52,378 nt of DNA from NCBI GenBank assembly GCA_035527535.1, contig DATLAK010000176.1, forward strand, positions 1 through 52,378. The letters run 5' to 3'. The position numbers and the translations under genes are program-made. A model generated the notes under the pieces. It had not been told where the DNA came from and made no database searches. It worked only from the letters and a program-made list of their open reading frames with translations. Below are positions 7,624 to 44,906 of this stretch, one piece after another. Position 1 is the stretch's first letter, and every line of letters begins with the position of its first letter. Source of the stretch: Armatimonadota bacterium (GTDB lineage: Bacteria > Armatimonadota > Hebobacteria > GCA-020354555 > CP070648).

Positions 7624-7650
7624 GTAGGGGCGCACGGCGTGCGCCCCCTT
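7624..7650. repeat. GTAGGGGC-family palindrome
   Basis: The left flank GTA is followed by the nine-base arm GGGGCGCAC, a GGC centre and the arm GTGCGCCCC. The right flank is CTT rather than the TAC seen in perfect copies elsewhere in the window, so this copy is slightly decayed. Confidence 0.6.
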
Positions 7651-7745
7651 CACAGCCGAGGGCGGCTGTGCTACATTCGGGCACACAATCCGCCACCCCA
7701 ACCAAAAACGGTCATACCCTGCGGCTCGACCGGACTCACCCTCAC

Positions 7746-25643: not shown

Positions 25644-25831
25644 CGGACCCGCGGCGCACGATCAGGATCACCGGGCGGTCCGGGTGGCGCCTGGGCGCAG
25701 ACGGTCAAATCGCCGTCTGCTGTTCGCGCCGCCGTCCAGGCGCCGTTTGCTGTCGCTGATGAGGTCCGGGTGCCAGGCGTACAGCGTCGGCTCGCCAGGC
25801 GGATAAGCTTGCGAAATGAGGTGAACGGGTA
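25644..25831. repeat. Spacer between paralogues containing a third fragment of the duplicated leader
   Basis: Bases 25686-25710 match 24 of 25 bases of the signal-peptide junction of copy 1 (22232 onward; the segment GGGCGCAGACGGTCAAAT is identical). The fragment is out of context, with no start codon or signal peptide ahead of it. It looks like the scar of an earlier, third copy or of the unequal exchange that produced the tandem pair. The final 15 bases repeat the leader of copy 1. Confidence 0.6.
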
Positions 25832-28800: not shown

Positions 28801-29299
28801 GTTTTGGTTCTATGAAGCCGCCGGGCCGGGGAAGGACCTGCTGCCGTTGGGGCACTATCGGACGCGCCCCTGGCTGGCCTGGTATTTCGGGGCGACGGGG
28901 TCGGGCTTCTGGGTCTATAAGGACCTCGACCTGTGGTGGCCGCCGGATTACATGGGCCATGGAGATACCACGGCCTACGGAGCGGTGTACCAAAGCGACG
29001 GCGAGGTCATCAGCTCGCGGCGCTGGGAGGCCGTGCGCGACGGGGTCGAGGACTGGCGGGCGCTGTACGTCCTGCGCGAGGAAATCGAGAAGGCCCGCGC
29101 CTCCGGCCATACGGCCGCGGCTGACGGGGCCCAGGCGCTGAGTGACGAAGCCGTGGAGGCCATCATCGGCAGTCAGCCGAAGGACGCGGATGAAAGGGTT
29201 TGGGCGACCGGCGATTACGGCAGCGAGATAGATTTCGATGTGCTCATGGACTACCGCGCCAAGATCGCCGAGCAGATCACCAGGCTGCGGGGACTGTAG
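25832..29299 (+). CDS. Secreted FG-GAP/propeller protein with C-terminal GH123-like domain (copy 2)
   Basis: Also 1155 residues and collinear with copy 1: signal peptide ending AWA-Q, calcium-loop propeller repeats (DVDGDGAVEL, DLDGDGKIEV), middle beta domain and GH123-like barrel with Asp915-Glu916 in FYPLDEPWLTG. By eye the two are well over 80% identical. Differences cluster in a loop before the catalytic barrel, where copy 2 lacks several residues (around residue 890), and near the C-terminus, where it has a short insert (DYMGHGD). Similarity starts in the 15-base leader and continues about 25 bases past the stop. Both copies keep the catalytic pair, so both are probably functional, perhaps with different specificity. 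Confidence 0.85.
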   Translation: MRIAFQLVMALLLATSMMAGAWAQTVKWVRESDSYFSAPTLYPNASRPTGVAVANGRQVMVLNGDGSVVMETTLDGTIATPVTVADVDGDGAVELIVVLSQGDIVCLSREGKERWRYRTGSPRGDFKLAVVADVHPAPGREVLVGLHDGWLCCLSARGELLWRFRGDDSPMGPPAVGDLDRDGAPEIICGTEATHVYCLTGYGEVKWRFQQVAPYDRSGPNLADLDGDGKIEVLITRSDVNRHPCLVAIDPKGRLIWRTQDLAHGYVSNATVDLDGDGKLEVLHADKAGNVYCENHDGTRRWTATFDSHGIFWAPAVADLDGDGRQEIVVGQRMSGGSGAGLQVINWDGSIRPAPDVTGGANASPAVGDIDGDGKLELVASMQSPNRLVCLTWGAGGHVGWPSLRGNSAMTGADPSVAPGSPAPVEKMKPSGEAAISAAAAYWGDNTWSVTWRQPAPEDAFIELTAVAASGKREVVIQNLKPGATSAQVKCFLAAGGAFDISARLLVNSVTEPMFVATAAARVEAPEFCDDAGVEKVVKGAVAAGRAAGVKSIGLEAELLALRVQERLVKEMKRAGAANTEIATAAGALRQRARELLNLATALGGLWSGGDTGAFVVWQDPNPWDSFDPRAIPADLQTWPVVKHQYAAGVNEPLPSERPVKVSAYGNEFENVALNLLNTTAKTLRVRCTFQRPVRTGGARPNESPELAKQVTLQRLLPVAGAFRDIVYDALPELDRSGVIEVAPGEVAQLWLTVKTHGLEPGAHRLTLYLGTVAEKENLTFREVPIEIEVWPVSLPTDKYQLMNWASLDAASDQALQNMIDHGMSVIMGPSLPGVPVDERGNLAGEVDWTRFDQQMARVPKHWQFLWNNYPTPVFPKGVAAPVHFNGVKTAIGEMAKHLQALGFGYDQWGFYPLDEPWLTGFEAIPQLRQFCTLTKRADPNVRNYADPANMVRVEYIDEFKNLIDIWQPQVDLLKHDRELVKWFRENAKAFWFYEAAGPGKDLLPLGHYRTRPWLAWYFGATGSGFWVYKDLDLWWPPDYMGHGDTTAYGAVYQSDGEVISSRRWEAVRDGVEDWRALYVLREEIEKARASGHTAAADGAQALSDEAVEAIIGSQPKDADERVWATGDYGSEIDFDVLMDYRAKIAEQITRLRGL

Positions 29300-30490: not shown

Positions 30491-31813
30491 TCATGCCCGG
30501 CGGGAGAGGACTTTCTTCTCGTACGCCGCCAAGTCGCGCAGCCAACTTGCCCCGACGGGCGCGCCAGCGCGACAACATGCGTAGTCCCACACCGCGCCTA
30601 GCGGCATCTCGTCGCGGCGCTCGAGCAGCGCCAGCTTGTCGGCGCCGCGGCCGTCGTGCTCCGCGCGGCGGTGCAGTTCCCACGGTTCGAGCAGCGCCCG
30701 CAGCAGCGCCTTGCGCAGCGCCCGCGCCCCGATCACCCACGCGCCGACGCGATTGATGCTGGCGTCGAAGTAATCCAACGCCCACAAGCTGCGGTCGAGC
30801 GCCTTCCCGCGCACCGCCTCGTCGCACAGCGCGTTGACTTCGTCCGTGGTCACTACCACGTGGTCGCTGTCCCAGCGCACTCCGCGGCTGACGTGGAGCA
30901 GCACCCGTTCGACGAATTGCAGCGCCGATGACAGCTTGTCGGCCACGCTCTCGGTCGGATGGAAGTGGCCCAGGTCGAAGCACACCGCCACCTTGCGCGT
31001 CGCCGCGTAGCCGAGGTAGAACTCGTGGGAGCCGACGGTGTAGTCCTCGCCGCCGATGCCGAAGAGCTTGCTTTCGACCGCGTCCACCACCCCCGCCAGC
31101 TTGCGCGCCAGGATCTCGTCCAGCGCCTCGACCAGCCGGCGCCGCGGCCCCCAGCGGTCCACCGTGCGGTCCTTGCGGCTGTCGGGGATCCAGATGTTGG
31201 TCACGCACGGGCCCAGGCGCCGTGCCATGCTGCGCGCGATCTGGCGGCACGCCTGGCAGTGGCGAATCCAGAAACCGCGCACCGCGCGGTCATCGCTGGA
31301 AAGCGTCAGGCCCTCCTTGACCATGGGATGGGCGAAACAGGTGGGGTTGAAGTCGAGCCCCAGCTTGCGGTCAGCGGCCCAGTCCACCCAGCGCGCGAAG
31401 TGGCGTGGCGTGATCTCGTCGCGCTCCACCCGCTTGCCGCCGGTCTCGGCGTACATGGCGTGCAGGTTGAAGCGCAGGCGCCCGGGGATCCACGCCGTCG
31501 CCTGATCGAAGTCCTGGCGGATGTCGTCGCCGCTGCGGGCGGCGCCGGGGTAGTTGCCGGTGGCTTGCAGGCCGCCCGAATCAAGGGCCCCGGCTTGCGC
31601 CTCCAGACCGCGCACGTCATCGGCCTGCCAGCACTGCACCGAAACGGGGATGGCCAGCGCCGCGCGCACGGCGCGGTCGGTGTCCACGCCGATTGCCGCA
31701 TACCGTTCCTTGGCGATGGCGTAAGCCGCTTCGATCTGGCGAGCGGTTGGCTCTGTAGGGGCGGTTCGCAAACCGCCCCTACGAGCGGAGGCTACCTGAC
31801 TTGTTCTGGCCAC
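30491..31813 (-). CDS. rhaA: L-rhamnose isomerase
   Basis: The 440-residue protein aligns throughout with bacterial RhaA, which converts L-rhamnose to L-rhamnulose with Mn. Diagnostic blocks are PVSVQCWQADDV, GLQATGNYPG, LDFNPTCFAHP, DAVESKLFGIG, CFDLGHFHPTE, LHVSRGVRWDSDHVV and LDYFDASINR; metal-binding Glu, Asp and His residues lie in these. The C-terminal AYEKKVLSRR matches the family end. Length exceeds the E. coli enzyme by about 20 residues, all at the N-terminus. The GTG start at 31813 is supported by GGAGGG eight bases upstream, so this extension is probably translated. Residues 11-20 are encoded by a perfect palindrome (31755-31782). No rhamnulokinase or aldolase is nearby. Confidence 0.95.
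   Translation of the reverse strand: MARTSQVASARRGGLRTAPTEPTARQIEAAYAIAKERYAAIGVDTDRAVRAALAIPVSVQCWQADDVRGLEAQAGALDSGGLQATGNYPGAARSGDDIRQDFDQATAWIPGRLRFNLHAMYAETGGKRVERDEITPRHFARWVDWAADRKLGLDFNPTCFAHPMVKEGLTLSSDDRAVRGFWIRHCQACRQIARSMARRLGPCVTNIWIPDSRKDRTVDRWGPRRRLVEALDEILARKLAGVVDAVESKLFGIGGEDYTVGSHEFYLGYAATRKVAVCFDLGHFHPTESVADKLSSALQFVERVLLHVSRGVRWDSDHVVVTTDEVNALCDEAVRGKALDRSLWALDYFDASINRVGAWVIGARALRKALLRALLEPWELHRRAEHDGRGADKLALLERRDEMPLGAVWDYACCRAGAPVGASWLRDLAAYEKKVLSRRA
31755..31782. repeat. GTAGGGGC-family palindrome inside rhaA
   Basis: Perfect 12-base arms GTAGGGGCGGTT and AACCGCCCCTAC flank a CGCA loop. It lies inside the translated 5' end of rhaA, adding residues 11-20 (RRGGLRTAPT) upstream of the region that aligns with other RhaA proteins. 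Confidence 0.8.
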
Positions 31814-31836
31814 GAATGATGCCCTCCGCGAGCGAG

Positions 31837-31868
31837 AGGTAGGGGCACGGCATGCCGTGCCCCTACCT
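31837..31868. repeat. GTAGGGGC-family palindrome upstream of rhaA
   Basis: A 32-base perfect palindrome with arms AGGTAGGGGCACGGCA and its complement, with no loop and a GCATGC centre. It lies 23 bases beyond the rhaA start codon and only 54 bases from the copy inside the gene, so it would be in the rhaA leader. Confidence 0.8.
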
Positions 31869-32077
31869 ACGTCGGGGAGGCGGGAATCTCCTGCCGCTGG
31901 CGGCAGGTCAGCGCGTCATGTCATCCTGAGCCCTTCGATCGCGCTCAGATCCTGCCCTGAGCTTGCCGAAGGGATAAACTACGCGAAGCTTGCCCGCCTG
32001 TGGCGGGGATTTTGGCGCGGGTTAGCGGAAGATATGTCATGGCTCCCCCCGTCCTTCCGTGCGAACCATCGGCTAGA
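31869..32077. other. Intergenic, repeat-like
   Basis: No gene. A region around 31921-31974 contains CCTGAGCCCTTCG and a near-complement CCCTGAGCTTGCCGAAGGG, an imperfect inverted repeat of a kind commonly scattered in bacterial intergenic DNA. A partial copy with CTCAGGGCAAGCTCGG lies at 34271-34286. Confidence 0.4.
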
Positions 32078-34171
32078 TTACGGATAGACCTGCTTCACCC
32101 TGCCGGTGGCAAGATTCAGCACGCCGAGCGTCTCCGCCTGCCATTCATTGAAGCCCGGCGCGCGCTTGGCAACGATAGCCTGACCCTGGTCATTCATTCC
32201 CAGCAACAGATGGTCATGCGCTAAGCGGCGGACGGCATCATTGGGGAACTGCTGAACGCCGTCGCGCGCATTTACCAGCCAGACCATGTTAGGGCTCCAC
32301 ACCAACAGATTATCGCTACCTGGCAGCGTCGCGATCTTCTCCGTCCAACGACAATCGGGCAGCGCCCGGGCAACGGCGGCGGCGACATCCGCACGCCAGA
32401 GCGCGGGCTCGCCGTCGCTGACCGAGATGTAGTACAGCCGCTTGCCGTCCTTGGACCAAGTGAAGCCGGGGCTCCCATAGGATCTCGGTGCCGGGGTTTG
32501 CGACAGAAGCGCTGGCTTGCGTGCGCCGTCGCGAGCAATCAGAAACACCAAGAGGAGGGGCTCGCGCGGGCGCGTTCTGACCGGGTTAGAGGTGGCGATC
32601 GGCGACGCGAGCAGGGCGAACGCGATGGAACCACTTCCCGGAGAAACCGACACATCTGCAGTTACCCACTCATAGCCCGACGACAGCCGAGTCGCCAAGT
32701 CGTCGAGCGTGCACAGCACGGACTCGCGCCCCCTGGGAAGGCTGATGCGCACGAGGCCGGGTATGGGCACGGCGGATTCCTTTGTGTCCGGCACGAGGGC
32801 ATAGACGGCTTCGTCGGAGCCATCCCAGACCCAGCCCTGGGGTCTGCCTCGAACGTATCGGCTCGACGGCGGCCAGAGGGACACGACTCGGGCATCGGAG
32901 CCGTCCCGCCGCACAAGTTGCAGACCGCGCCAAGGGTCGCCGGCGCGCCTCCAACCCATGGCCGACATGCCAAGCCATAACCCCTTCGGCGACCATTCGA
33001 CTGCCTGCTCCGGCGATCGGTAAGGCCGTAGTCCGTCGTGGATGGGAAGGAATGGTTTCGCCCAATCCATGCGCTTGGTCGTCAGATCCCAGACCTGCAA
33101 TTCGGTAAGTCCGGGGCGGTCGTTTGGCGACCACCAGGTGAGCGCGAACGGCTGCGGCATTACGGCGGCTAGTTTTCCATCAGCCGACACAGCCGCTATG
33201 CCACCGCCACGAAAGGTCAGGAGGTCGCGCCCGGTTTGCAGATTCGTCAGGACGAGGGATTCGCTGCGGTAGCCGACACGCCGGCGCCCTGGGGCGGAGG
33301 AGTCTACATCAAATGTTCGTTCGATGGGCCAGCCCTTGGCGACCACGCCGGCAACCTCGCCATTGGCGGACAAGGCAACCGGCTCGACCTCCTGCACCCG
33401 CGCACGCTCATAGCGGGTTGCCCAGTGGACGGTGCCGCTAATGAGCAAGACCACGGTGCCGGCGTACAGCGCCCAGACGCCCACGCCCAACACCCACCGG
33501 CTGCGCGAGCGCAGCATCTCGCCGCGCGAAAAGGCGATAAGCGACCCCAGCAGCAGGCCGGGCGTCATCGCGAGCGCCCAGACACCGATACTGTCTGCCG
33601 GGTCCGAGCCCACCAGGCTGCCGCCCCACACCTCGGCCATAGGGGCGACGAGCGCGAGGAGCCCTAGACCGAATACGACTGTCCCCATGAACGCGCTGAG
33701 CAAGTGCTCCAACATGGTGGAGAACAGAACGCTCGCTAAGAACACAACAAACCACCAAGGCGCGAGCCAGAGGGTGAACTCAGACGAATCATGGCCCCTC
33801 CCCAGGACTTGGGGGAGCGCGAGCAGGCTCGGCAACACGAGCAGGAGGGAGGCGCAAAGCGCCAGGGTGAATCCCGCCGCCACTTTCGCCGCCCAGATCC
33901 GACTACGGCTCAGCGGCAGGCTCAAGAGGACGGGAAGCGTGCCCCGCTCCTTTTCGGAGGCGAACAGCCCGGCGCCGCCGAGAATGGCGATTATGTATCC
34001 GGCGAAGCATATCAGTACAAAGAGACTCTGGTCGTCCATTCTCTCCGTGCTGAGCAGGGGCGGATAGAGGCCGAACATCCCGCGCAGCACCGCCACCAAG
34101 ACCGCGACCGACATCCCGAACAGCGGCAGCCACCGGCCCTTGCGCAGTTCCTTGATAAACAAGGCTTTCAT
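32078..34171 (-). CDS. ABC-2 type permease fused to a C-terminal beta-propeller domain
   Basis: A 697-residue protein. The first ~260 residues are an ABC-2 permease: KELRKGRWLPLFG, then about six helices with the conserved SEKERGTLPVLLSLPLSRSRIWAAK between helices two and three. The last helix (VLGVGVWALYAGTVVLLIS) is followed by a ~430-residue soluble domain with WD40/TolB-like repeats, such as GIAAVSADGKLAAV, QAVEWSPKGLWLG and GFTWSKDGKRLYYISVSDG, ending at LNLATGRVKQVY. Usual ABC-2 permeases stop after the helices. The ATG at 34171 follows GGGAGGA. With the upstream ATPase and YtrA-like regulator it forms an apparent three-gene operon, though a 151-base gap with a hairpin precedes it. Confidence 0.82.
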   Translation of the reverse strand: MKALFIKELRKGRWLPLFGMSVAVLVAVLRGMFGLYPPLLSTERMDDQSLFVLICFAGYIIAILGGAGLFASEKERGTLPVLLSLPLSRSRIWAAKVAAGFTLALCASLLLVLPSLLALPQVLGRGHDSSEFTLWLAPWWFVVFLASVLFSTMLEHLLSAFMGTVVFGLGLLALVAPMAEVWGGSLVGSDPADSIGVWALAMTPGLLLGSLIAFSRGEMLRSRSRWVLGVGVWALYAGTVVLLISGTVHWATRYERARVQEVEPVALSANGEVAGVVAKGWPIERTFDVDSSAPGRRRVGYRSESLVLTNLQTGRDLLTFRGGGIAAVSADGKLAAVMPQPFALTWWSPNDRPGLTELQVWDLTTKRMDWAKPFLPIHDGLRPYRSPEQAVEWSPKGLWLGMSAMGWRRAGDPWRGLQLVRRDGSDARVVSLWPPSSRYVRGRPQGWVWDGSDEAVYALVPDTKESAVPIPGLVRISLPRGRESVLCTLDDLATRLSSGYEWVTADVSVSPGSGSIAFALLASPIATSNPVRTRPREPLLLVFLIARDGARKPALLSQTPAPRSYGSPGFTWSKDGKRLYYISVSDGEPALWRADVAAAVARALPDCRWTEKIATLPGSDNLLVWSPNMVWLVNARDGVQQFPNDAVRRLAHDHLLLGMNDQGQAIVAKRAPGFNEWQAETLGVLNLATGRVKQVYP

Positions 34172-34293
34172 CAGTCAGTCCTCCCTCTGAAATCACCTAT
34201 GCCATGCTTACGCCCGGCTCGCTATGCACTTGACCCGCCGGTGGCACAGGATTGCACCCCTTTGACAAACTCAGGGCAAGCTCGGTAGCATTT

Positions 34294-34312
34294 CGCAGGT
34301 TGAAAACCTGCG
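34294..34312. repeat. Hairpin related to the GTGGCGCAGG repeat family
   Basis: CGCAGGTT-GAA-AACCTGCG followed by CCACC resembles half of the double hairpins at 13839 and 50363. It lies between the ATPase and permease genes of the ABC operon. Confidence 0.55.
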
Positions 34313-34322
34313 CCACCATGGG

Positions 34323-35213
34323 TCATGAACTATCAGGTTGCACGAGATCAATGAAAATGTCTTCGAGGCCCAGATCTTCGACCTCGGCCTGTATGTCGGC
34401 GCTCGTCAACGCATCGAGCATCGCGGGTGACAACCCTGAGACGGTAAATCGCGTCTCGCGTGGGCTGCGTTCGACGCGGCGAGCTTGCGGCGGCAGGTCG
34501 GGCGCCGCTCCCGCGGGATGAATCAGCCGGATGCGCTTCACGCCGGCCTTGAGATCGTCGAGCGAGGACTCCAGCACCAGCCGCCCCTTGACCAGGAAGC
34601 CGACGTAGTCGCAGATGCGTTCCATGTCGGCGATGTCCTGGCCGGTGATGAGCACGGTGCGGCCCTCGGAATGCATGACCTCGATGACGCTGCGCAGCAC
34701 CTCGCGGCGCGCGATCGGGTCGAGGCCGGTCAAGGCTTCGTCGAGGATGAGCAGGTCCGGCTCGTGGCCGATGGCGACCGCCACCGCGGCGAGGGTGCGC
34801 TGGCCGCGGGACAGGTCCTGCAGCCGATCATTGGCATCAATGCCCACGCGGGTGAGGACCGACGAAACCGCGTCAGGATTCCAGCGCGGATAGCAGCCGG
34901 CCATGAAGTCGGCCAGCTCCTTCACCCGCATCGAGTCCCACAGCGGCTGGAGCGCAGCGACGTGGCCGATTCGCTTCCGCACGGCCACCGAGTCCCGGAC
35001 CACATCGTGCCCCAAGACCGCCGCCGTGCCGTGCGTGGGGGTGAGCAGGTTGAGCAGACAGCGGACAAACGTGGTCTTGCCTGCGCCGTTGGGCCCCATA
35101 AGGCCGTAGATGGCTCCGACGGGCACGTGGGCGGAGACCGAATCGAGCGCCTGCTTGCGCCCGAAGCGCTTGGCCAACGACTCGGAGATCACTGCATACT
35201 CACTTGCGTTCAT
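34323..35213 (-). CDS. ABC transporter ATP-binding protein
   Basis: A 296-residue ABC-2 type ATPase that should pair with the permease-propeller protein. It shows Walker A GPNGAGKTT near residue 40, signature LSRGQR, Walker B LLILDEALTGLD, and the H-loop replaced by Gln in LITGQDIAD, where most ABC proteins have His. The signature has Arg in place of the usual Gly. The C-terminal part (about 220-296) is a regulatory extension seen in YtrB-like proteins. The ATG at 35213 overlaps the end of the GntR gene by 14 bases, with AGGAGG inside that gene, so translation is probably coupled. Transported substrate is unknown; YtrA-regulated relatives respond to cell-wall stress. Confidence 0.92.
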   Translation of the reverse strand: MNASEYAVISESLAKRFGRKQALDSVSAHVPVGAIYGLMGPNGAGKTTFVRCLLNLLTPTHGTAAVLGHDVVRDSVAVRKRIGHVAALQPLWDSMRVKELADFMAGCYPRWNPDAVSSVLTRVGIDANDRLQDLSRGQRTLAAVAVAIGHEPDLLILDEALTGLDPIARREVLRSVIEVMHSEGRTVLITGQDIADMERICDYVGFLVKGRLVLESSLDDLKAGVKRIRLIHPAGAAPDLPPQARRVERSPRETRFTVSGLSPAMLDALTSADIQAEVEDLGLEDIFIDLVQPDSS

Positions 35214-35604
35214 CACTCCTCCTCTCGCGACGGGCTTGACTGAGGATGCCGCGGAACAGCTCCAGCGCGTCCTTGGGAGACACGCCGAAGGCTCGAGCGT
35301 CGTGCGCCACCTTCTCCAACTGCTCGGCGATGATGCGCCTGCGCTCCGAGTCGGCGGTCGCTTCCGCCGTCGCAGAGATGAAAGTGCCCTGGCCGCGGCG
35401 GGTCTCGAGCAAGCCGTCCCGTTCCAGGTCGCGGTACACCCGCGCGACGGTGTTCGGGTTCACGAGCAACTGGGCGGCGAGGTCGCGCACCGACGGCAAC
35501 TGGTCACCGGGAGCAAGCTGCCCGGCGGCGACCCCGCGGCGGATCTGGTCTATGATCTGCCGGTAGATGGGCAGGGCTGATTTCGGGTTGATCGGGTTAA
35601 GCAT
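35200..35604 (-). CDS. GntR-family repressor, YtrA subfamily
   Basis: The 134-residue regulator has an N-terminal winged helix (about 10-75: PIYRQIIDQIRRGVAAGQLAPGDQLPSVRDLAAQLLVNPNTVARVYRDLERDG in pieces, ending LLETRRGQGTF) and only a short helical C-terminal part, which defines the YtrA type. These proteins normally repress their own ABC-transporter operon. The ATG at 35604 has no Shine-Dalgarno, and a likely -10 lies only about 22 bases ahead, so the mRNA leader is very short. A perfect inverted repeat overlaps that promoter. The gene overlaps the ATPase gene. Confidence 0.92.
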   Translation of the reverse strand: MLNPINPKSALPIYRQIIDQIRRGVAAGQLAPGDQLPSVRDLAAQLLVNPNTVARVYRDLERDGLLETRRGQGTFISATAEATADSERRRIIAEQLEKVAHDARAFGVSPKDALELFRGILSQARRERRSDERK

Positions 35605-35621
35605 GGTTGTTTGTACGGCCT

Positions 35622-35643
35622 GTGTACTATAAGACTAGTACAC
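35622..35643 (-). promoter_or_regulatory. GntR/YtrA operator overlapping the operon promoter
   Basis: GTGTACTA and TAGTACAC form a perfect eight-base inverted repeat with a six-base spacer. The arms resemble operators of YtrA-type regulators. On the minus strand the likely -10 TATAGT (complement of 35626-35631) lies inside it, 18 bases from the gntR start, so bound protein would block transcription. No convincing -35 is visible. Confidence 0.7.
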
Positions 35644-35844
35644 TATCACAATATCCCTCTCTTGGCAAGAGGGAATTTTGGCGGACCGGGCGGGACCAGT
35701 AAGGCCGCAAGGGAACGGAACATGATGCCGTAAGGGCGGGCAGGATGACGCCGCCGGGCGAGGAAACTGCATCCCTGGAGCGGCCACGGGCGCCGAGACT
35801 TCGCGGTAGCAGGATCGCGCCCGGGAAACGCCGAAAACGCCGAT

Positions 35845-36864
35845 ATGCACGGGCGGTTCGCACATGCGGTGCTGAGACGGGCGGTGCTGCTTGCGGCCGC
35901 GGCCTTGGGCGCGGCGGCGATGGCGGCATTGGCCAGCATGCTTTGGCCGTTGCAGGTGCAGCTCGGTTCGGGGGGCAGAATCGCGGACATGGCCTGGGCG
36001 GGTCTGTGGCTGTGGTGCGCGGGGGCCGCTCCCGGTCTGGTTGCTGGTGCGATGTGGGCAGTCGGAGGCGGCAAGGTACCCCGAGCTAGGCTCGTGCTCA
36101 CAGCGCTGGGGATGGTGTTCGGTCTCGCTGCCCTGGTGTGGATTCTTGGGCCGACTCTGTTCCGGAACCCATACCTGAACGAGGTAACCCGGCGGCTCAG
36201 GTTTGGTTGGATTCCTTATTTCTCCACCGTGATCATTTTCAACGCTTGGTTCGCGTGGATCGGCATGCTGGTTGGGCGGCGGCTCGGCTGGCGCGTTGCC
36301 CCGACGCGCATCGCGATTGTCGGTCTCGCGCTCGCTGTTCTTCTGGGCGGATTCCGGGTTTGCCGCGAGCGGCTGCTGCCGGGCTACGGGGTATATCGCC
36401 TGCTGTACCGGTACGCAACGGCGCGCAATCATCGCGACCATTCGCAGGCGCTGACTTGCTTCACGCCGGATTACCTGCGCCGCGAGCTTGGCGCGCCGCC
36501 CTACGCTGAGAAATACCGTCGCGCCTGCCGAATCGAGCAGGCAAGCTTGGGGGCCGACGATCGCGTCGTGTTTTGTTTCCACGACGGGCGGCCGGTGCGA
36601 AGCCGTTCCGTGCACGGCGGTAGCCGGCGCACTCGAATCGCATATCATTACAAGACCCACAGCCAGCTGAGTGGTTTCCGTTGGAGCTGGGACATGACCG
36701 TACGGCCCGCGGGTTTGAGGTGGTGCATCGTTGACCTGCAGCCGACCGCGGAATCTCAGATGGGCTTCCAGGCCTTCAAGCTCGCCCAAGGCCCCGCCGG
36801 GACGGTACGGATTCTCAGTGCGCCGGAGGCACGGGCGAAAGCCGACGAGCCCAGGCAGCGGTAG
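35845..36864 (+). CDS. Membrane protein of unknown function with soluble C-terminal domain
   Basis: A 339-residue protein with four hydrophobic segments in the first ~175 residues (AVLLAAAALGAAAMAALASML, WAGLWLWCAGAAPGLVAGAMWA, LVLTALGMVFGLAALVWIL, IIFNAWFAWIGMLVG) and probably a fifth (IAIVGLALAVLLGGF). A soluble C-terminal half follows (about 185-339), with YRLLYRYATARNHRDHSQALTCF-like sequence in its first part, similar in style to NTF2-like stress or lumazine-binding folds but not assignable. No Shine-Dalgarno precedes the ATG at 35845, so the start is uncertain. It diverges from the GntR operon. Confidence 0.6.
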   Translation: MHGRFAHAVLRRAVLLAAAALGAAAMAALASMLWPLQVQLGSGGRIADMAWAGLWLWCAGAAPGLVAGAMWAVGGGKVPRARLVLTALGMVFGLAALVWILGPTLFRNPYLNEVTRRLRFGWIPYFSTVIIFNAWFAWIGMLVGRRLGWRVAPTRIAIVGLALAVLLGGFRVCRERLLPGYGVYRLLYRYATARNHRDHSQALTCFTPDYLRRELGAPPYAEKYRRACRIEQASLGADDRVVFCFHDGRPVRSRSVHGGSRRTRIAYHYKTHSQLSGFRWSWDMTVRPAGLRWCIVDLQPTAESQMGFQAFKLAQGPAGTVRILSAPEARAKADEPRQR

Positions 36865-37185
36865 AGCCGGGCCGGACGGCGGGCACAGGCCCCGATAGAT
36901 CGGGATTCGGAAACCTGCCCGCCCTACGTTAGCCAGCCGCCACCTCCTGGCACTTACGCACGATGTAGCCGGTGAAGGCGCGGCGCAGCCAGGCGAGGCG
37001 GCCTTCGGCAACGGCCGATTGGATGCGGTCGCGCATTGCGTCCATGCCGGGGACGAATCTGCCCAGGGACGCAGTGTCTCGTTTCCGCGGAGCCGCGATT
37101 TCCCGCTTGTGGCGCTTTCCACACAGAATCGCGCGTCACCCCGATGACGCCGAGTCGCGCCATGTGGAAACACCTTGACGGTGCG
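36865..37185. other. Intergenic stretch of about 320 bases with a nested hairpin and a possible gene fragment
   Basis: A nested hairpin occupies 36878-36923. On the minus strand, an open frame from about 37134 to a stop at 36929-36931 reads plausibly as protein at its end (MRDRIQSAVAEGRLAWLRRA, then FTGYIVRKCQEVAAG), but has no good start or Shine-Dalgarno and is not recognised. It may be a gene remnant. The kinase start may also lie within this stretch. Confidence 0.35.
36878..36923. repeat. Nested palindrome after the membrane-protein gene
   Basis: Outer arms GGCGGGCA and TGCCCGCC enclose CCCGAT-AG-ATCGGG (36891-36904). It ends in CCGCCCTAC, partly like the right arm of the GTAGGGGC family. 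It could act as a bidirectional terminator, but there is no T-run. Confidence 0.5.
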
Positions 37186-38001
37186 ATGACAGCCCACAAC
37201 TCCTGGCGGATGGCGCCGGCGGCGTCGGCCGCGGCGCGGGCCTCCGCGAGCCGACCGCGGAGCGACGACGAGGCGAGCGCAAATGGCGATCGCAGCGCGC
37301 GAATCCAGTCGGAGAAGCTGGCGGCGGTCGGCTTGCTCGCCGCGGGGGCGATGCACGAGATCAACAACCCCGTCACCGCCATCGTCGCCTACGCGCAGCT
37401 GCTGCTCAAGAGCGACCTCGGCGAGCGCCAACGCGCCGACGTCGAGCGCATCGCCACCGAGGCGCTGCGCGCGTCGCGGATCGTGCAGAACCTGCTCAGC
37501 TTCTCCCGCCCCATGCGCCCGCAGAAGGCGCCGCTGGACTTAAACGACGCGGTGGGGGGCGCGCTCGACCGCCGCAGCCGCCAGCTCGCCGCCGACCATA
37601 TCGCGGTGCATACTCACCTGTGTTCGGGTCTGCTCCTGGTCGAGGCCGATCGCTACCAGCTCGAGCAAGTCTTCATCAACATCATCAACAACGCGCGCGA
37701 CGCTATGCTGCTGCAGCCTGATGACCGCCGGCTGACCGTGTCCACCACGGCGGGTGATGGCCGCGTGCGCGCGACTTTCGATGACTCCGGGCCAGGCATT
37801 GTGCCAGCCGACCTCGACCGCATCTTCGATCCCTTCTTCACCACCAAGGAGGAAGGCCGCGGCACCGGGCTCGGGCTCGCCGTCTGCTACGGCATACTCA
37901 AGGAGCACAGGGGGTGCATCAGCGCCCACAACCTGCCCGCGGGCGGAGCGCGCTTCGTGGTCGAGCTCCCGCGTGCAACGGAGGACGAGCATGGCGGCTA
38001 G
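37186..38001 (+). CDS. Soluble histidine kinase
   Basis: With the start taken at ATG 37186 the protein has 271 residues. The HisKA domain carries phospho-acceptor His57 in GAMHEINNP. The HATPase_c domain has the N-box FINIINNARDAM (about 163-174), G1 DSGPGI (200-205), F-box DPFFTTK and G2 GTGLGLAV (226-233). No transmembrane segment or PAS/GAF sensor is seen, so the signal must arrive through a partner or via the short, Ala-rich N-terminus. The start is uncertain: in-frame ATGs at 37036, 37144, 37162 and 37186 all lack a Shine-Dalgarno. The 3' end overlaps the response-regulator gene by 11 bases, so the pair should work together. Confidence 0.85.
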   Translation: MTAHNSWRMAPAASAAARASASRPRSDDEASANGDRSARIQSEKLAAVGLLAAGAMHEINNPVTAIVAYAQLLLKSDLGERQRADVERIATEALRASRIVQNLLSFSRPMRPQKAPLDLNDAVGGALDRRSRQLAADHIAVHTHLCSGLLLVEADRYQLEQVFINIINNARDAMLLQPDDRRLTVSTTAGDGRVRATFDDSGPGIVPADLDRIFDPFFTTKEEGRGTGLGLAVCYGILKEHRGCISAHNLPAGGARFVVELPRATEDEHGG

Positions 38002-39133
38002 CCTTGCCCCCCAGGCGGCGGAGCGCGAACCCGTGCTCGTGGTTGACGACGAGGCCTCCATCTGCGACGTGCTCGGACGCACGCTGGAGGCGATGGGCCA
38101 TCCTTCGCGCACTTCCACCAACGCGCAGGAGGCGCTCGCCGCGCTTGCCGGCGGCGACTTCGCGTTGGTGCTGAGCGACATTCGCATGCCGGGCATGGAC
38201 GGCGTCGAGCTGCTGCGCCGGATCGTCGCCCGCATGCCCAACACCGCGGTGATGATGGTGACCGCGGTCTTGGACGTCAACACCGCAGTTACCGCGATGC
38301 GGCTGGGCGCCTGTGACTACGTGGTCAAGCCCTTCGACCTCGACAACGTCGCCCAGCGGGTGGAGCAGGCGCTGGTGCGGCGCCGCCGGCTGATGGACGA
38401 GGAGCGGCGCCACGCGCAACTGGAGCGCGAGGTCGTCGAGCGCACAGCGCAGGCGCGGCGCATGTTCCAGGGGGCGCTGCACTCGCTCGCCGCGGCATTG
38501 GACGCGCGCGATGGCGACACCCACGGCCACTCGCAGCGCGTCACCGCCCTCGCCGTCGCCCTCGCCCGACAACTACGGCTGGACGACCGGCTGGTCGAGC
38601 ACACGCGTCTAGCCGGCATGCTGCACGACATCGGCAAGATCGGCATCCGCGAGTCGGTGCTCAACAAGCCCACGGCCTTGAGCGATGACGAATACGCGCA
38701 CATCAAGACCCATCCCGTGATCTCGCAGAACATCCTTGAGCCTATCCTCTGGGAGCCGCAGGTGGTGCGCCTCATTCGCTCACACCACGAGCGCTATGAC
38801 GGTGCCGGCTATCCGGACGGCCTCGCCGGCGAGGACATCCCGCTGGGGGCGCGTGTCCTGGCCGTCGCCGATGCCTTTGACGCCATGACCAGCGAGCGAC
38901 CCTACCGCTCACCCATGACTCCCGAACGCGCCCGGGAGGTGCTGCGTGAGGGACGCGGCAGCCAGTGGGATCCGGCGGTGGTTGACGCCCTGGAGCAGTT
39001 GGCGCCTGAGGCATGGCGGAGTTGCACGGAGGGCGACGCGGGCGCGGACCATTTCGATAACCTCCCCGCCTACGGCGCCAGCGAAGAAGAGACGGCCGCC
39101 GTCCCTTCGATGCGCACGTCATCCGGCGCCTGA
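37991..39133 (+). CDS. Response regulator with HD-GYP domain (cyclic-di-GMP phosphodiesterase)
   Basis: The 380-residue protein has a receiver domain (about 14-125) with acidic Asp19-Asp20, phospho-acceptor Asp63 in LSDIRMPGMDG, Thr91 and Lys113 (VKPFD). A coiled linker follows, then an HD-GYP domain (about 155-335) with His212-Asp213 in MLHDIGKIGI and the HHERYDGAGYP signature at 265-275. All catalytic-motif residues are intact, so it should hydrolyse cyclic-di-GMP when phosphorylated by the adjoining kinase. The ATG at 37991 has GGAGG six bases ahead, inside the kinase gene. The receiver-HD-GYP (RpfG-like) layout is common. Confidence 0.93.
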   Translation: MAASLAPQAAEREPVLVVDDEASICDVLGRTLEAMGHPSRTSTNAQEALAALAGGDFALVLSDIRMPGMDGVELLRRIVARMPNTAVMMVTAVLDVNTAVTAMRLGACDYVVKPFDLDNVAQRVEQALVRRRRLMDEERRHAQLEREVVERTAQARRMFQGALHSLAAALDARDGDTHGHSQRVTALAVALARQLRLDDRLVEHTRLAGMLHDIGKIGIRESVLNKPTALSDDEYAHIKTHPVISQNILEPILWEPQVVRLIRSHHERYDGAGYPDGLAGEDIPLGARVLAVADAFDAMTSERPYRSPMTPERAREVLREGRGSQWDPAVVDALEQLAPEAWRSCTEGDAGADHFDNLPAYGASEEETAAVPSMRTSSGA

Positions 39134-39224
39134 GCCACAGCGCGGGAGAAGCCGGCAATCCGTGCGCAAGCGCGTTTCTCGCTGCTGATAGCTGGGAATA
39201 ACTCTCGCGCGGAGGCGCAGCAGG

Positions 39225-39292
39225 TGTAGGGGCGCGGCGCTCCAGAGTTGTCCGCCTCCGGCGCGGGTAAGTAAACATGCCGTGCCCCTACA
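39225..39292. repeat. Interrupted GTAGGGGC-family element
   Basis: Left arm TGTAGGGGCGCGGCG starts at 39225 and right arm CATGCCGTGCCCCTACA ends at 39292, with about 35 unrelated bases between. The outermost nine bases are perfectly complementary. It looks like a longer, bipartite version of the compact palindromes. It lies between the HD-GYP gene and convergent hypE. Confidence 0.6.
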
Positions 39293-39359
39293 TCATCATG
39301 CGGAGGCCGTCTCTCTCCTCTCCTTCCAGGTCCGCGCGATGCTCTCCCGCTTGCGCGTG

Positions 39360-40370
39360 TCAGCAGATGCGCGGCATGGGTTCGCCCACCGGCAGGTCAA
39401 TGATGCGCGTCGGGCCGACTGCCGTCTTGAGCTGCACCCGTCCCGCCGGGCCCTCGAGCACGCGCCCGATCACCGTCGCCCCGGCCCCGTAGGGCGCCTC
39501 CCGCATCGCCGCCAGCGCGCGCTCCGCCTCCGGCGCGGGCAGGATCACCAGCATCTTCCCTTCGTTTGCCACCTGCAGCGCATCGAGGCCCAGCAGCTCG
39601 CACGCCGTCCGCACCGCCGGCGCCACCGGCAGGCGCTCCTCGTCCAGCTCGATGCACACCTGCGACTGCTCCGCGATCTCGTTGAGCGCCGCCGCGACCC
39701 CGCCGCGCGTGGGGTCGCGCAGGCAGTGCAGGTCGCAGCCCACCTCAACCAGCGCCCCCACCAGGCGGTTGAGCGGCGCGCAGTCGCTGCCGAGGTCGAG
39801 CTCCAGGTCTATGCCCTCGCGCGCGCACATGATCGCCATGCCGTGCTCGCCGAGACCGCCGTTGATGAGAATAACGTCTCCGGGACGGGCGGCAGACGCC
39901 GAGACCTCGACGTTGGGCGGCACCACGCCGAGGCCGGTGGTGGTGATGAAGATGCGGTCCGCCGCGCCCCTGGGCACGACCTTGGTATCGCCGGTGATGA
40001 CCGATACGCCGGCTTCATCCGCCACCGCCCGCAGCGACGCCACCACCCGCCGCAGCAGCGACTGCTCCACCCCCTCCTCGAGGATGAAGGCGGCAGCCAG
40101 CGCCGCCGGCCCTGCGCCTGACGCCGCCAGATCGTTGATCGTGCCGCAGGCCGCCAGCTTGCCGATGTCGCCGCCGGGGAAGATGATCGGGGTCACGACG
40201 AAGCTGTCGGTAGTCAATGCCAGGCGCTGACCGGCGACCTGGATCACCCCGCTGTCCTCGCGCCGGCGCAGGATCGGGTTGTCCAAGCCCGCCACGAAGA
40301 CGTGCTCGATCAGCTCGGCCATGAGCTGGCCGCCCGCGCCGTGGCTGAGGAGGATGACGTCGTCATTCAT
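39360..40370 (-). CDS. hypE: Hydrogenase maturation protein HypE
   Basis: The 336-residue protein dehydrates the thiocarbamate on its own C-terminal cysteine to the cyanide ligand later moved to hydrogenase iron. It starts MNDDVILLSHGAGGQLM, has the ATP-site blocks LTTDSFVVTPIIFPGGDIGKLA and GDTKVVPRG, and ends exactly with PRIC (Cys336), the required terminal cysteine. The ATG at 40370 overlaps the hypD stop by four bases (ATGA), showing translational coupling. A longer open frame upstream is only an overlap with hypD. It is the last gene of the hydrogenase/hyp set. Confidence 0.97.
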   Translation of the reverse strand: MNDDVILLSHGAGGQLMAELIEHVFVAGLDNPILRRREDSGVIQVAGQRLALTTDSFVVTPIIFPGGDIGKLAACGTINDLAASGAGPAALAAAFILEEGVEQSLLRRVVASLRAVADEAGVSVITGDTKVVPRGAADRIFITTTGLGVVPPNVEVSASAARPGDVILINGGLGEHGMAIMCAREGIDLELDLGSDCAPLNRLVGALVEVGCDLHCLRDPTRGGVAAALNEIAEQSQVCIELDEERLPVAPAVRTACELLGLDALQVANEGKMLVILPAPEAERALAAMREAPYGAGATVIGRVLEGPAGRVQLKTAVGPTRIIDLPVGEPMPRIC

Positions 40371-41488
40371 GTCGGACTCCCGCTGCGGCGGTAGCGGTAG
40401 TGTGCGGCGCACGCGCCCTCGCTCGACACCATGCACGCGCCGACGGGACTGCGCGGCGTGCACTGCCCCCCGAACAGTGCGCACTCCGCGGGCAGGATCA
40501 CGCCCCGCAGCACCTCCCCGCAGCGGCACCCGGCGGGCTCGACCGCCGGCGCGGGGGTGACCTGGAACCGCTGGCGCGCATCGAACTCGGCGTACGCGGC
40601 GCTGAACGCCAGCCCGCTCCGCGGCACCTCCCCCAGCCCCCGCCACCGCGCATCCGCCACCGCGAACACCTCCTCCACCACCGCCCGCGCTCGCGGGTTG
40701 CCCGCGGGCGCCACTACGCGCCCGTATTCGATCTCGACCGCGGCGCGCCCCTCCGCGATCTGCACCAGCAACATGCGCACCGCCGCCAGCACGTCCACCG
40801 GCTCGAACCCCGCGATCACGCACGGCACCCCATGCTCGCGCGCCACGAACTCGTAGGGGCGGCTGCCGATGATGACGCTGACGTGACCGGGGCAGATGAA
40901 GCCATTCACCGCCGCACCTGCCCCCGGCGCAGCCGCAGCATCGGGCGCCTCCACCAGCGCCCGCAGCGCGGGTGGAATCAGCTTGTGCGCGCAGTACACG
41001 CGGTAGTTCGTCAGCTCCTTGGCGCGCGCCTCCAGCACCGACATGGCGACCGCCGGGGCGGTGGTCTCGAAGCCGACGCCAAAGAAGATGACCTGCCGCT
41101 CGGGGTTGCGCCGCGCCAGTTCCACCGCGTCGGCGGGCGAATAGACGACGCGCACGTCCGCGCCCTGCGCGCGCTCCCGCTCCAGGGTCGAACGGCTCCC
41201 CGGCACGCGCATCATATCGCCGAAGGTGGCGGCCACCACCCCCGGCAGCCGTGCCGCCTCCAAGAACCAGTCCAGGTCCCCCTGCGCGGTCACACACACC
41301 GGGCACCCCGGCCCCGCCACCAGTTCGGCGCGCGCCGCCACCAGCTCGCGCAGGCCGTAGCGGGCGATCGCCATGGTGTGGGTGCCGCAGACCTCCATCA
41401 GCCGCGCCCGCGGCGCCGGGATGCGGTTGATGGCCGCGGCCAGCGCGGTCACCGCCCGCGGGTCGCGGAACTCGTCAACGTGCCTCAT
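40367..41488 (-). CDS. hypD: Hydrogenase maturation protein HypD
   Basis: A 373-residue [4Fe-4S] scaffold protein on which, with HypC, the Fe(CN)2CO unit is assembled. Conserved cysteine motifs are MEVCGTHTMAI, GPGCPVCVT, GFICPGHVSVI and the C-terminal CRCGEVLRG with later Cys residues for the cluster (PAECALFGGQC). The start MRHVDEFRDP aligns with other HypD proteins; an ATG one codon upstream is also possible. It overlaps hypC by 14 bases and hypE by four. Length is typical. Confidence 0.97.
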   Translation of the reverse strand: MRHVDEFRDPRAVTALAAAINRIPAPRARLMEVCGTHTMAIARYGLRELVAARAELVAGPGCPVCVTAQGDLDWFLEAARLPGVVAATFGDMMRVPGSRSTLERERAQGADVRVVYSPADAVELARRNPERQVIFFGVGFETTAPAVAMSVLEARAKELTNYRVYCAHKLIPPALRALVEAPDAAAAPGAGAAVNGFICPGHVSVIIGSRPYEFVAREHGVPCVIAGFEPVDVLAAVRMLLVQIAEGRAAVEIEYGRVVAPAGNPRARAVVEEVFAVADARWRGLGEVPRSGLAFSAAYAEFDARQRFQVTPAPAVEPAGCRCGEVLRGVILPAECALFGGQCTPRSPVGACMVSSEGACAAHYRYRRSGSPT

Positions 41489-41723
41489 CATCGGCCCCCG
41501 GGGGAGCGGCGGGTTCCGCCAGATTCCGCACCAGTTCCAGGGTGCGCAGCGCCTCTTCTTCGTCCACGCGCGCGATGGCGTAGCCGGCGTGAACGAGGAC
41601 GTAATCGCCCGTCTTGACCTCGTCGAGCAGCCCGACGTTGACCGCCCGTCGCGCCCCCTCCTGTTCCGCAATGGCGCGGCCGCCCTCCATCGAGACCACC
41701 TTCATCGGGATGGCCAGGCACAT
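41475..41723 (-). CDS. hypC: Hydrogenase maturation chaperone HypC
   Basis: The 82-residue chaperone begins MCLAIPMKV; Cys2 binds the iron unit and the hydrogenase large subunit after removal of the Met. The GDYVLVHAGYAIARVDEEEA segment is the family's second hallmark. The gene sits between hypF and hypD, overlapping hypD. AGGTGAG is about eight bases before the ATG. Confidence 0.96.
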   Translation of the reverse strand: MCLAIPMKVVSMEGGRAIAEQEGARRAVNVGLLDEVKTGDYVLVHAGYAIARVDEEEALRTLELVRNLAEPAAPPGADDEAR

Positions 41724-41752
41724 AGTCCGCGTCTCACCTTTCTGCAGAAATG

Positions 41753-41772
41753 GGGACAGGCACCATAATCCG
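41753..41772. repeat. Palindrome between hypF and hypC
   Basis: CCATAATC-CGGA-GATTATGG is a perfect eight-pair stem in the 53-base gap between hypC and hypF. It is preceded by TGGGGACAGGCACC, a sequence familiar from dispersed REP-type elements. No T-run follows on either strand. Confidence 0.55.
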
Positions 41773-41776
41773 GAGA

Positions 41777-44128
41777 TTATGGAGCCAATCCCCCAGCCGC
41801 GACTGATATCGCGGCGGCAATCACCGCCTGCCCCAAGGCGAGGCCGCCGTCGTTAGGCGGCACCTGGCGGTGCAGCAGCGGCTCCAGGCCGCGCCGCGGC
41901 AGATCCTTCGCCAGCAGCTCCAGCAAGTAGGCGTTTTGGAACACGCCGCCGCCCAGGGCCACTTGCGTCAACCCGGTGTCACGGGCCATGCGCTCGCACA
42001 CGTCGCCGATCAATGCGGCGATGGTGTAATGGAACCGCGCCGCGATCTCGGCCCGCTCCACACCGGCGCGCAGATCGTCCACCACGCCGCGGATGATCGG
42101 CGCCGGGTCAATCTGCCAGGGGCGGACAGAGGTGTCCAGCCGTAGGGGCAAGGCATGCCTTGCCCCTACACTCTGCCACGCTGCCATTTCGAGTTCGACC
42201 GCCGGTTGCCCGGTGTAGGTCGCTTCGGCGCAAATGCCAAGCAGGGCCGAGACGGCGTCGAACAACCGCCCCATGCTCGAGGTGGGCGGCGAGTTGAATC
42301 CGCGCGCAGCTTGCGCCATCACCGCCGTCACTTCGCGCGGCTCGAGGTCCGGCATCAGCGACCGGGCGACCAGCTCCGCGTCATCGGGGTAAGCTCGCAT
42401 GAGGTATGCCAGCGCCATGCGCGCGGGCCGTCTCACCGCCGCCGCGCCGCCGGGCATGGGCACGTAGGCAAGATGAGCCCAACGGTCGAAACCGGTCAGC
42501 CGCGCCAGCAAGAACTCGCCGCCCCAGACCGCCCCGTCGGGGCCATAGCCGGCGCCGTCGAGACAGGCCGCGAGCACCGGGCCCTGCACTGCGGCATCGG
42601 CCATGACCGATACCGCATGGGCGTGGTGGTGCTGCACGCCGACGAGGCGGCAGTCGCGGCGGCGGCGCGCGTACTTGGTGGACAGATACTCCGGGTGCAG
42701 GTCGTGGGCGATGATCTCCGGGCGCCAGCGAAAGAGCGCGCCCAGATGCTCGATCCCCCGCTCGAAGTAATCCAGCGTCTCGACGTTGTCGAGGTCGCCG
42801 ATATGCTGGCTGACGACGGCACGGTCGCCGACGATCATGCAGAAGGTGTTGCGTTCCTCCCCGCCGACCGCCAACACCGGCGGTGCCACCTGCGGCAAAG
42901 CGAGGGCCCGCGGCACATACCCGCGGGAGCGGCGCACGAGCATCGGCCGGCCGGCCACCACTCGCGCCACCGAGTCGTCACACGGCAGGTGGATGTCGCG
43001 GTCGTGGGTCAGAAAGCTGTCGGCGATGCCCCCGAGCTTGGCGCGGGCTTCGTCGTTGCGGTGGCAGATGGGCTCCTCCGCGAGGTTGCCGCTAGTCATG
43101 ACCAGGGCCGGCGGGGCGGTCTCGAAGAGCAGCGCGTGCAGCGGGGTATAGGGCAGCATGACCCCCAGGTAGCGGTTGTGGGGTGCGACCTCGCGCGCGA
43201 TGCCATTCTGCGGGCGCTCCCACAAGAGGACGATCGGGCGCTGCGGGGATTGCAGCAGTGCCCGCTCCTGGTCGCTGATCGAGCACAGCCGGCCGGCCTC
43301 CGCCAGGTCGCGTACCATCAGGGCGAACGGCTTGTCGCTGCGCCCTTTGCGCCGGCGCAAGGCGCGCACGGCGTCCGCATTGCGCGCGTCACATGCCAGA
43401 TGGAATCCGCCCAGCCCCTTGACCGCGACAATGCGCCCGGCGGCGAGCAGTTCCCCCGCGCGCAGCACCGGCGCGGCGGGGTCGCCGCCCGCGGCCGGCC
43501 GGTCGTCGAGGGCGACGCGCGGGCCGCAGCGCGGGCAGGCGTTGGGCTGGGCGTGGAAGCGGCGATCGGCAGGGTCGTCGTACTCCGCCTGGCAGGCCGG
43601 GCACATGCGGAACGCCGCCATGGTGGTGTGGGGGCGATCGTAGGGGATGCCGCGGATGATGGTGAACCGCGGGCCGCAGTTGGTGCAGTTGGTGAAGGGA
43701 TAGTGGAAGCGCCGGTCGCCGGCCTCGCGCACCTCGCGCCCACAGTCCGCGCAGGTGGCGATGTCGGCGGGAATGACCGGCTCGGGGGGCTGCTCGCCGG
43801 CGCTGGCGAGGATGGTGAATTCGCGTTCCCCGGTCGGCGCGAGCGGGTGCACGGTGATGGCGGAGATGTCGGCCGCCGGCGGGGCCTGCGCGCGCAGCGA
43901 GCGCACGAACTCCTCCACTCGCCCGTTCTCCCCTTCGACCTCGATGATTACTCCCTCGGAGCTGTTGCGCACCCACCCGCCGAGGTCGAGCGAGCGCGCG
44001 AGCTGGTACACGAAGGGGCGGAAACCCACCCCCTGCACGATGCCTTTAACCGTGGCCTTGGTTCTGGCTCTCAAGTAAGCGGCTGCCTTGCGCGCTGATG
44101 CGGGCGCTGCCAGATTGTCCCTCCGCAT
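41777..44128 (-). CDS. hypF: Carbamoyltransferase HypF
   Basis: The 783-residue enzyme makes carbamoyl-adenylate and transfers the carbamoyl group to HypE. Domains in order: acylphosphatase-like (about 24-110, GIVQGVGFRPFVY), two zinc fingers with CxxC pairs at Cys126/129, 148/151, 176/179 and 198/201, a YrdC-like domain (about 220-390), and a Kae1-like domain (about 410-783) with VGVQHHHAHAVSVMAD. All motifs are intact. Residues 654-663 (VGARHALPLR) are encoded by a perfect 28-base palindrome. The start ATG at 44128 lacks a good Shine-Dalgarno; a TTG 18 codons on would sit nearer the usual family start. Confidence 0.96.
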   Translation of the reverse strand: MRRDNLAAPASARKAAAYLRARTKATVKGIVQGVGFRPFVYQLARSLDLGGWVRNSSEGVIIEVEGENGRVEEFVRSLRAQAPPAADISAITVHPLAPTGEREFTILASAGEQPPEPVIPADIATCADCGREVREAGDRRFHYPFTNCTNCGPRFTIIRGIPYDRPHTTMAAFRMCPACQAEYDDPADRRFHAQPNACPRCGPRVALDDRPAAGGDPAAPVLRAGELLAAGRIVAVKGLGGFHLACDARNADAVRALRRRKGRSDKPFALMVRDLAEAGRLCSISDQERALLQSPQRPIVLLWERPQNGIAREVAPHNRYLGVMLPYTPLHALLFETAPPALVMTSGNLAEEPICHRNDEARAKLGGIADSFLTHDRDIHLPCDDSVARVVAGRPMLVRRSRGYVPRALALPQVAPPVLAVGGEERNTFCMIVGDRAVVSQHIGDLDNVETLDYFERGIEHLGALFRWRPEIIAHDLHPEYLSTKYARRRRDCRLVGVQHHHAHAVSVMADAAVQGPVLAACLDGAGYGPDGAVWGGEFLLARLTGFDRWAHLAYVPMPGGAAAVRRPARMALAYLMRAYPDDAELVARSLMPDLEPREVTAVMAQAARGFNSPPTSSMGRLFDAVSALLGICAEATYTGQPAVELEMAAWQSVGARHALPLRLDTSVRPWQIDPAPIIRGVVDDLRAGVERAEIAARFHYTIAALIGDVCERMARDTGLTQVALGGGVFQNAYLLELLAKDLPRRGLEPLLHRQVPPNDGGLALGQAVIAAAISVAAGGLAP
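42142..42169. repeat. GTAGGGGC-family palindrome inside hypF
   Basis: A 28-base perfect palindrome with 14-base arms beginning GTAGGGGCAAGGCA, with no loop and a GCATGC centre. It lies within the Kae1-like domain of hypF and encodes residues 654-663 without breaking the frame. Its arms and centre match the copy at 31837-31868 almost exactly. Confidence 0.85.
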
Positions 44129-44193: not shown

Positions 44194-44239
44194 GAAGATG
44201 GCGCAGGGGCACAGCATGCTGTGCCCCTGCGCCATCTTC
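44194..44239. repeat. 46-base perfect palindrome between hypF and the hydrogenase small subunit
   Basis: Arms of 23 bases start GAAGATGGCGCAGGGGCA and meet at a GCATGC centre with no loop and no mismatch. The central part, AGGGGCACAGCA and its complement, is a member of the GTAGGGGC family, with GC in place of GT in the flank. It is the longest perfect palindrome in the window. Confidence 0.85.
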
Positions 44240-44878: not shown

Positions 44879-44906
44879 GCAGGGGCGCAGGGCCGTGCGC
44901 CCCTGC
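44879..44906. repeat. GTAGGGGC-related palindrome at the end of hyfF
   Basis: Eleven-base arms GCAGGGGCGCA and TGCGCCCCTGC flank the loop GGGCCG. It begins one base after the hyfF stop codon in the direction of transcription. Confidence 0.65.

Follow-up and report, generated by a model that had tools for sequence, protein, structure and literature searches.

Palindromes in frame in rhaA and hypF of an Armatimonadota bacterium fit the double-foot GTAG-REPs of a known transposase subclass

Double-foot repetitive extragenic palindromes (REPs), with GT[AG]G at the 5' end and C[TC]AC at the 3' end, accompany subclass 2.4 of the REP-associated tyrosine transposases (RAYTs, also TnpA_REP), and in the canonical long type of this subclass the stem base is said to consist of three G-C pairs (Quentin et al. 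2018, PMC6006769). The same work already reported REPs lying in frame inside RAYT genes, between the HuH and Tyr motifs. GTAG-REPs in frame in protein genes, many of them at ends or in linkers, have been described as well (Di Nocera et al. 2013, PMC3733652); there, the Rickettsia palindromic elements RPE-4 and RPE-6 were classed with CGTC REPs, and no dedicated transposase was found. Single-stranded REPs are recognised by the TnpA_REP of E. coli, which requires GTAG and cleaves at CT, and the way in which REPs spread is still little understood (PMC8266576). Here, we describe palindromes in a 52,378-nt stretch of DNA from an Armatimonadota bacterium (contig DATLAK010000176.1; the whole stretch is called the window below), two of which lie in frame in rhaA, encoding L-rhamnose isomerase, and hypF, encoding carbamoyltransferase HypF. 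In all likelihood they are double-foot GTAG-REPs, most likely copied by a putative subclass-2.4 RAYT encoded on contig C189, with the copies surviving in genes being those that kept the frame and fell in a tail or a loop.

Three copies with GTAGGGGC/GCCCCTAC arms are present in the window (31755-31782, 31839-31866 and 42142-42169; Table 1), against 0.00 expected in shuffled sequence, and 52 GTAGGGGC-N-GCCCCTAC palindromes are present in the 3.24-Mb genome (G000), against 0 for a reversed-pattern control, so that a chance origin is ruled out. GTAG...CTAC ends are common to the three window copies and the 52 of the genome, and the stem base, GTAG-GGG...CCC-CTAC, amounts to three G-C pairs; by these sequence features the palindromes fit the double-foot GTAG-REPs of the RAYT subclass 2.4 type. 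The interior is AAGGCATGCCTT in 33 of the 50 palindromes examined, and the hypF copy belongs to this commonest type. The original prediction had located the rhaA and hypF copies and their arms correctly, together with the residues that they encode (11-20 of RhaA, 654-663 of HypF), their different reading frames and the openness of both genes. It had called both palindromes perfect, which is right for hypF (14 + 14 bp), whereas the rhaA copy has 12-bp arms around a CGCA loop. Its further statement that the same element lies elsewhere in the window holds strictly for 31839-31866 only, the other candidates being an imperfect relative (about 7624-7651) and two GCAG-footed sequences (44194-44239 and 44879-44906).

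A transposase with matching repeats resides in the same genome. Pfam Y1_Tnp misses or barely catches long-linker RAYTs, and the C189 gene was recovered only with a custom profile, built from 15 RAYTs of the subclass 2.4 type and searched in this genome and 101 related genomes. The genome contains one strong match to this profile (C189:1695-2225, E 4.7e-51), which matches NCBIfam REP_Tyr_transpos at E 1.1e-19 with 70.8 bits, under the model cut-off of 80. Assignment to the subclass rests on motifs and a profile instead of a tree: NHIH and WQ are present, and YIADNP is found where YIxNNP is given. Repeats of the AAGGCATGCCTT type border the gene, GTAGGAGCAAGGCATGCCTTGCTCCCTAC just upstream and GGCAAGGCATGCCTTGCCCCTAC, with one full foot only, at its 3' end. 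In addition, a double-foot palindrome, GTAGGGGCGCACGGCCGTGCGCCCCTAC, lies in frame inside the gene, 27 codons after HuH and between the HuH and Tyr motifs. Three other RAYT/Y1 genes found with Pfam Y1_Tnp were rejected as the main mover, those on C61 and C175 for having no GTAGGGGC palindromes nearby and that on C149 for having its own GTAGGGGCCGATC-type REPs. On contig C149, a second RAYT gene (L081:2340-3090) is flanked by REPs of the type GTAGGGGCCGATCTCCTGATCGGCCC, and its frame runs into the downstream REP.

The association between palindromes and this kind of RAYT extends beyond one genome. Among the 101 related genomes, palindromes occur in 15 of the 22 with a strong profile match vs 13 of the 79 without one (Fisher p = 7e-6); the 22 were picked by eye at about E 1e-25 and the genomes, being related, do not count as independent, which makes p no more than indicative. 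In keeping with the association, the nearest relative, genome G001, has one palindrome and lacks a match to the profile. As an exact 28-mer, the palindrome is found in at least 119 stretches from records titled as more than 10 phyla, mostly metagenome bins, some of whose assignments may be binning errors. Among the matches listed, about 25 stretches have an open reading frame of at least 60 codons on each side, a few of which, in GC-rich DNA, may be spurious, and 6 carry the exact 28-mer in frame in RAYT genes. In a set of 28 RAYT relatives, collected by similarity to one 28-mer-bearing RAYT, 14 had a double-foot palindrome inside the reading frame, where codon-shuffled sequence gives a mean of 0.01. 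The 28-mer also occurs on one viral contig, which is not enough to implicate phages. In six RAYT genes of distant bins (L192, L205, L231, L259, L270 and L286), the exact 28-mer stands in frame 12-49 codons after HuH, and at this position their neighbours in related genomes bear different palindromes, often GTAGAGAC...GTCTCTAC. Compared with solved structures, other proteins from other phyla show a net change at the 28-mer of about +8 residues in CbiD, about +5 to +7 in QueA and UppP, a much larger gain in inositol monophosphatase and little change in DnaE; by this comparison the net length change varies among proteins. The queA gene of a Peribacteria bin (L230, positions 3887 and 4447) has the 28-mer twice in frame, read in different frames as CRGKACLAPT and VGARHALPL, and inositol monophosphatase genes of two FCPU426 bins (L200 and L238) have it in the same surface loop, L238 along with other repeat-like sequence.

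Within the genome, 50 sites were assessed by codon-usage scoring for a position in the interior or at the end of a gene. Clear interior copies are limited to hypF, a DUF6079-like gene (L008) and a heparinase-like gene (L107), gene-end copies were found in rhaA and a mannose-6-phosphate-isomerase-like gene (L095), and in several further copies, which lie at the 3' end of a gene, the GTAG foot supplies the stop codon TAG. Interior copies thus placed appear far rarer than expected under random placement. Two kinds of larger repeat with inverted ends, resembling miniature inverted-repeat transposable elements (MITEs), contain about 17 of the 50 palindromes at fixed places. The first is about 140-175 bp long with inverted ends GGGTGTGACCG/CGGTCACACCC (G000 loci L154-L171, e.g. 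L090:1930-2120); in most of its copies the palindrome has a fixed position, which in L171 is taken by a different, shorter sequence, and its second hairpin, CCCCGACnnGTCGGGG, is missing or swapped in L164-L167. The second surrounds the palindrome at L001, L004, L014, L015 and L106, and by half at L007, its flanks being TCAATCGCGCGAAGCCGCCC and CTGTGTCGCGCCCGGTGCGA. The copies in rhaA and hypF share no flanks with other copies and have no terminal inverted repeats of a larger element.

In HypF, comparison with the nearest relative (76% identical; genome G001, of the same family) is informative. Between conserved flanks, the linker that contains the palindrome has 28 residues in G000 and 28 in G001, and at the palindrome itself G001 has an equal number of residues that are different; therefore the palindrome seems to have taken the place of codons, with about 28 bp of loop codons apparently overwritten and none added. 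Along ungapped DNA, identity drops from about 0.8 to about 0.4 across the palindrome and returns to about 0.8, with no gap. In the structural model, residues 652-662 are predicted as coil, flanked by a helix (641-651) and a beta hairpin (mean predicted local distance difference test score, pLDDT, 89.5). The DUF6079-like gene has one codon more than its G001 counterpart at the palindrome, and its apparent break in G001 is a scaffold gap (a run of N), not a rearrangement. Against relatives of 33-41% identity, the alignments of L008 and L107 are too loose for fixing an indel. Taken together, two loci (hypF and L008) compared with one relative suggest replacement rather than insertion. The original prediction of a mobile palindrome inserted in hypF and able to add peptides, to be recognised by a relative lacking exactly these residues, is therefore borne out as regards a palindrome tolerated in coding sequence, and not as regards an insertion or an added peptide, as the relative has a linker of the same length with other residues.

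In RhaA, the palindrome sits, as predicted, ahead of the part that aligns with known RhaA, in a non-conserved N-terminal tail before the Pfam domain (residues 26-439). The tail is longer in G000 than in G001 by 6 residues, not 10, which gives weak support to the idea that the element adds peptides. A GGAGG followed by a GTG start is common to G000 and G001 and lies upstream of the palindrome in G000, so the predicted start is not downstream of it. The leader and first codons of rhaA are predicted to form a strong RNA hairpin at each of the two palindromes, and an effect on rhaA expression is therefore possible.

According to the preferred reading, the C189 RAYT, which is bordered on both sides by repeats of this kind and has another in frame within its own gene, would copy palindromes around the genome as single-stranded hairpins, and selection would remove most copies landing in genes. 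Those in rhaA and hypF would persist because the frame is kept and the sites are an N-terminal tail and a loop, and they are probably close to neutral. We infer from the sequences that the RAYT moved the palindromes, the direction of the change and that both proteins still work. A bolder extension, which we regard as speculative and rather improbable, is that subclass-2.4 REPs may overwrite coding DNA, a 28-nt hairpin replacing a patch of about equal size with frame and length kept and so enabling the colonisation of genes, while the RAYT-internal copy would travel between phyla with the RAYT and seed new genomes; such travel would account for the occurrence of one and the same 28-mer in more than 10 phyla.

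The events at the two genes could be read otherwise. The hypF palindrome may be a simple in-frame insertion of about ten codons, later masked by a neighbouring deletion of similar size. The HypF linker does vary among relatives (21-32 residues over 18 homologues) and the same 28-mer gives net gains in CbiD, QueA and UppP, but two events would be needed at hypF and again at L008, and we consider this course a serious contender that is nonetheless less likely than not. As for rhaA, the palindrome might be untranslated, or might donate the start codon through a TTG located centrally in it on the coding strand; the GTG at 31813 would then not be the true start. The sequence just upstream does not have the codon usage of a gene (-0.20 per codon across 44 codons, untranslated sequence included), and N-terminal REPs are often mis-annotated as coding (PMC3733652). 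This is set against a GGAGGG 8 nt before the GTG, in a layout also found in G001, where the palindrome is absent, and against the lack of any ATG, GTG or TTG from the palindrome to the conserved region, which together leave this reading of rhaA rather unlikely.

Several points weigh against copying by the C189 RAYT. Movement by the RAYT is deduced, no movement having been seen; the interior of the C189 internal palindrome is GCACGGCCGTGC, unlike the commonest copies; the RAYT occurs without palindromes in 7 of the 22 genomes, and palindromes occur without a RAYT match in 13 of the 79. Replacement could moreover be mimicked by earlier length changes in variable linkers, and the MITE-like repeats that hold about 17 of the 50 copies are possible carriers. 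Were the palindrome mainly cargo of such MITEs (GGGTGTGACCG...CGGTCACACCC and the second type), moved by a conventional transposase, the solitary copies would be remnants. The fixed place of the palindrome in these repeats, together with L171, which is without it there, speaks for this, but no common flank is seen around most copies, those in rhaA and hypF included, the 28-mer loci of other phyla show no match to MITE flanks, and what the RAYT carries is the palindrome and not the MITE, so cargo status is very unlikely. Chance recombination of stable single-stranded hairpins, by illegitimate short-patch replacement at replication forks and with no transposase, would account for hypF and L008, where a patch is replaced with a net change of 0 or +1 codon and no clean insertion is seen. 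Yet the comparison of two loci with a single relative is little to build on, and the strong link with one RAYT clade, whose ends bear its repeats, makes such an origin slightly less credible still than the previous one. A literature search on short-patch double illegitimate recombination returned no paper under that name.

The features of the window are collected in Table 1. Elsewhere in the window, a direct duplication spans 22161-29263, its copies about 3.65 kb apart and 84-93% identical per 300-bp block.

Table 1. Positions of the palindromes, genes and related repeats in the window.
Feature	Position	Strand	Remarks
rhaA, L-rhamnose isomerase	30491..31813	-	Pfam RhaA at residues 26-439; G001 relative 82% identical
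Double-foot GTAG-REP in rhaA	31755..31782	.	12-bp arms, CGCA loop; codons 11-20, variable N-terminal tail
Putative ribosome-binding site GGAGGG	31822..31827	-	Ahead of rhaA GTG start; GGAGG/GTG layout also in G001
Second double-foot GTAG-REP	31837..31868	.	Core 31839-31866; perfect over 32 bp; leader just upstream of rhaA
hypF, carbamoyltransferase HypF	41777..44128	-	Palindrome inside HypF_C_2 (Kae1-like) domain, predicted loop
Perfect double-foot GTAG-REP in hypF	42142..42169	.	28 bp (14 + 14); codons 654-663, read VGARHALPLR
Imperfect relative GTAGGGGCGCACGGCGTGCGCCCCCTTC	7624..7651 (approx.)	.	Beside TGTGACCG-type repeat end
46-bp perfect palindrome, GCAG-footed core	44194..44239	.	Between hypF and next upstream gene; candidate related repeat
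GCAG-footed hairpin	44879..44906	.	Intergenic; candidate related repeat

The occurrence of in-frame REPs in RAYTs and other genes reproduces a published finding (PMC6006769, PMC3733652) and is not a discovery. The parallel with Rickettsia palindromic elements, drawn by the original prediction, stands for the effect, as both are dispersed palindromes in frame in protein genes, and not for the family. Indeed, RPE-1 is longer and RPE-4 and RPE-6 are of the CGTC type, whereas GTAG/CTAC feet and a RAYT with matching repeats are found here; membership of the RPE family was rejected on the feet, on hypF having no added length and on the rhaA tail gaining 6 residues only. Unlike bacterial MITEs, the rhaA and hypF copies are solitary, without the flanks of the terminal-inverted-repeat-bearing repeats that hold about 17 other palindromes. 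With respect to the intragenic GTAG-REPs described as insertions (PMC3733652), hypF differs in having no net gain over its nearest relative. The double-foot GTAG-REPs of subclass 2.4 (PMC6006769) are alike in the feet, in the GGG/CCC base, in a RAYT with NHIH and WQ and in REPs that both flank the RAYT gene and lie in frame within it; nothing essential differs, the particulars here being the low number of copies (52), the replacement signature in hypF and YIADNP for YIxNNP. What is added is a link between an in-gene palindrome and one particular transposase of the same genome that bears matching repeats, along with examples of a REP that seems to replace codons at unchanged protein length, a testable clue to how REPs spread if general. 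All in all, the rhaA and hypF palindromes are a real, well-anchored example of a known and mostly ordinary phenomenon, whose points of interest are the replacement signature in hypF and the exact 28-mer in more than 10 phyla.

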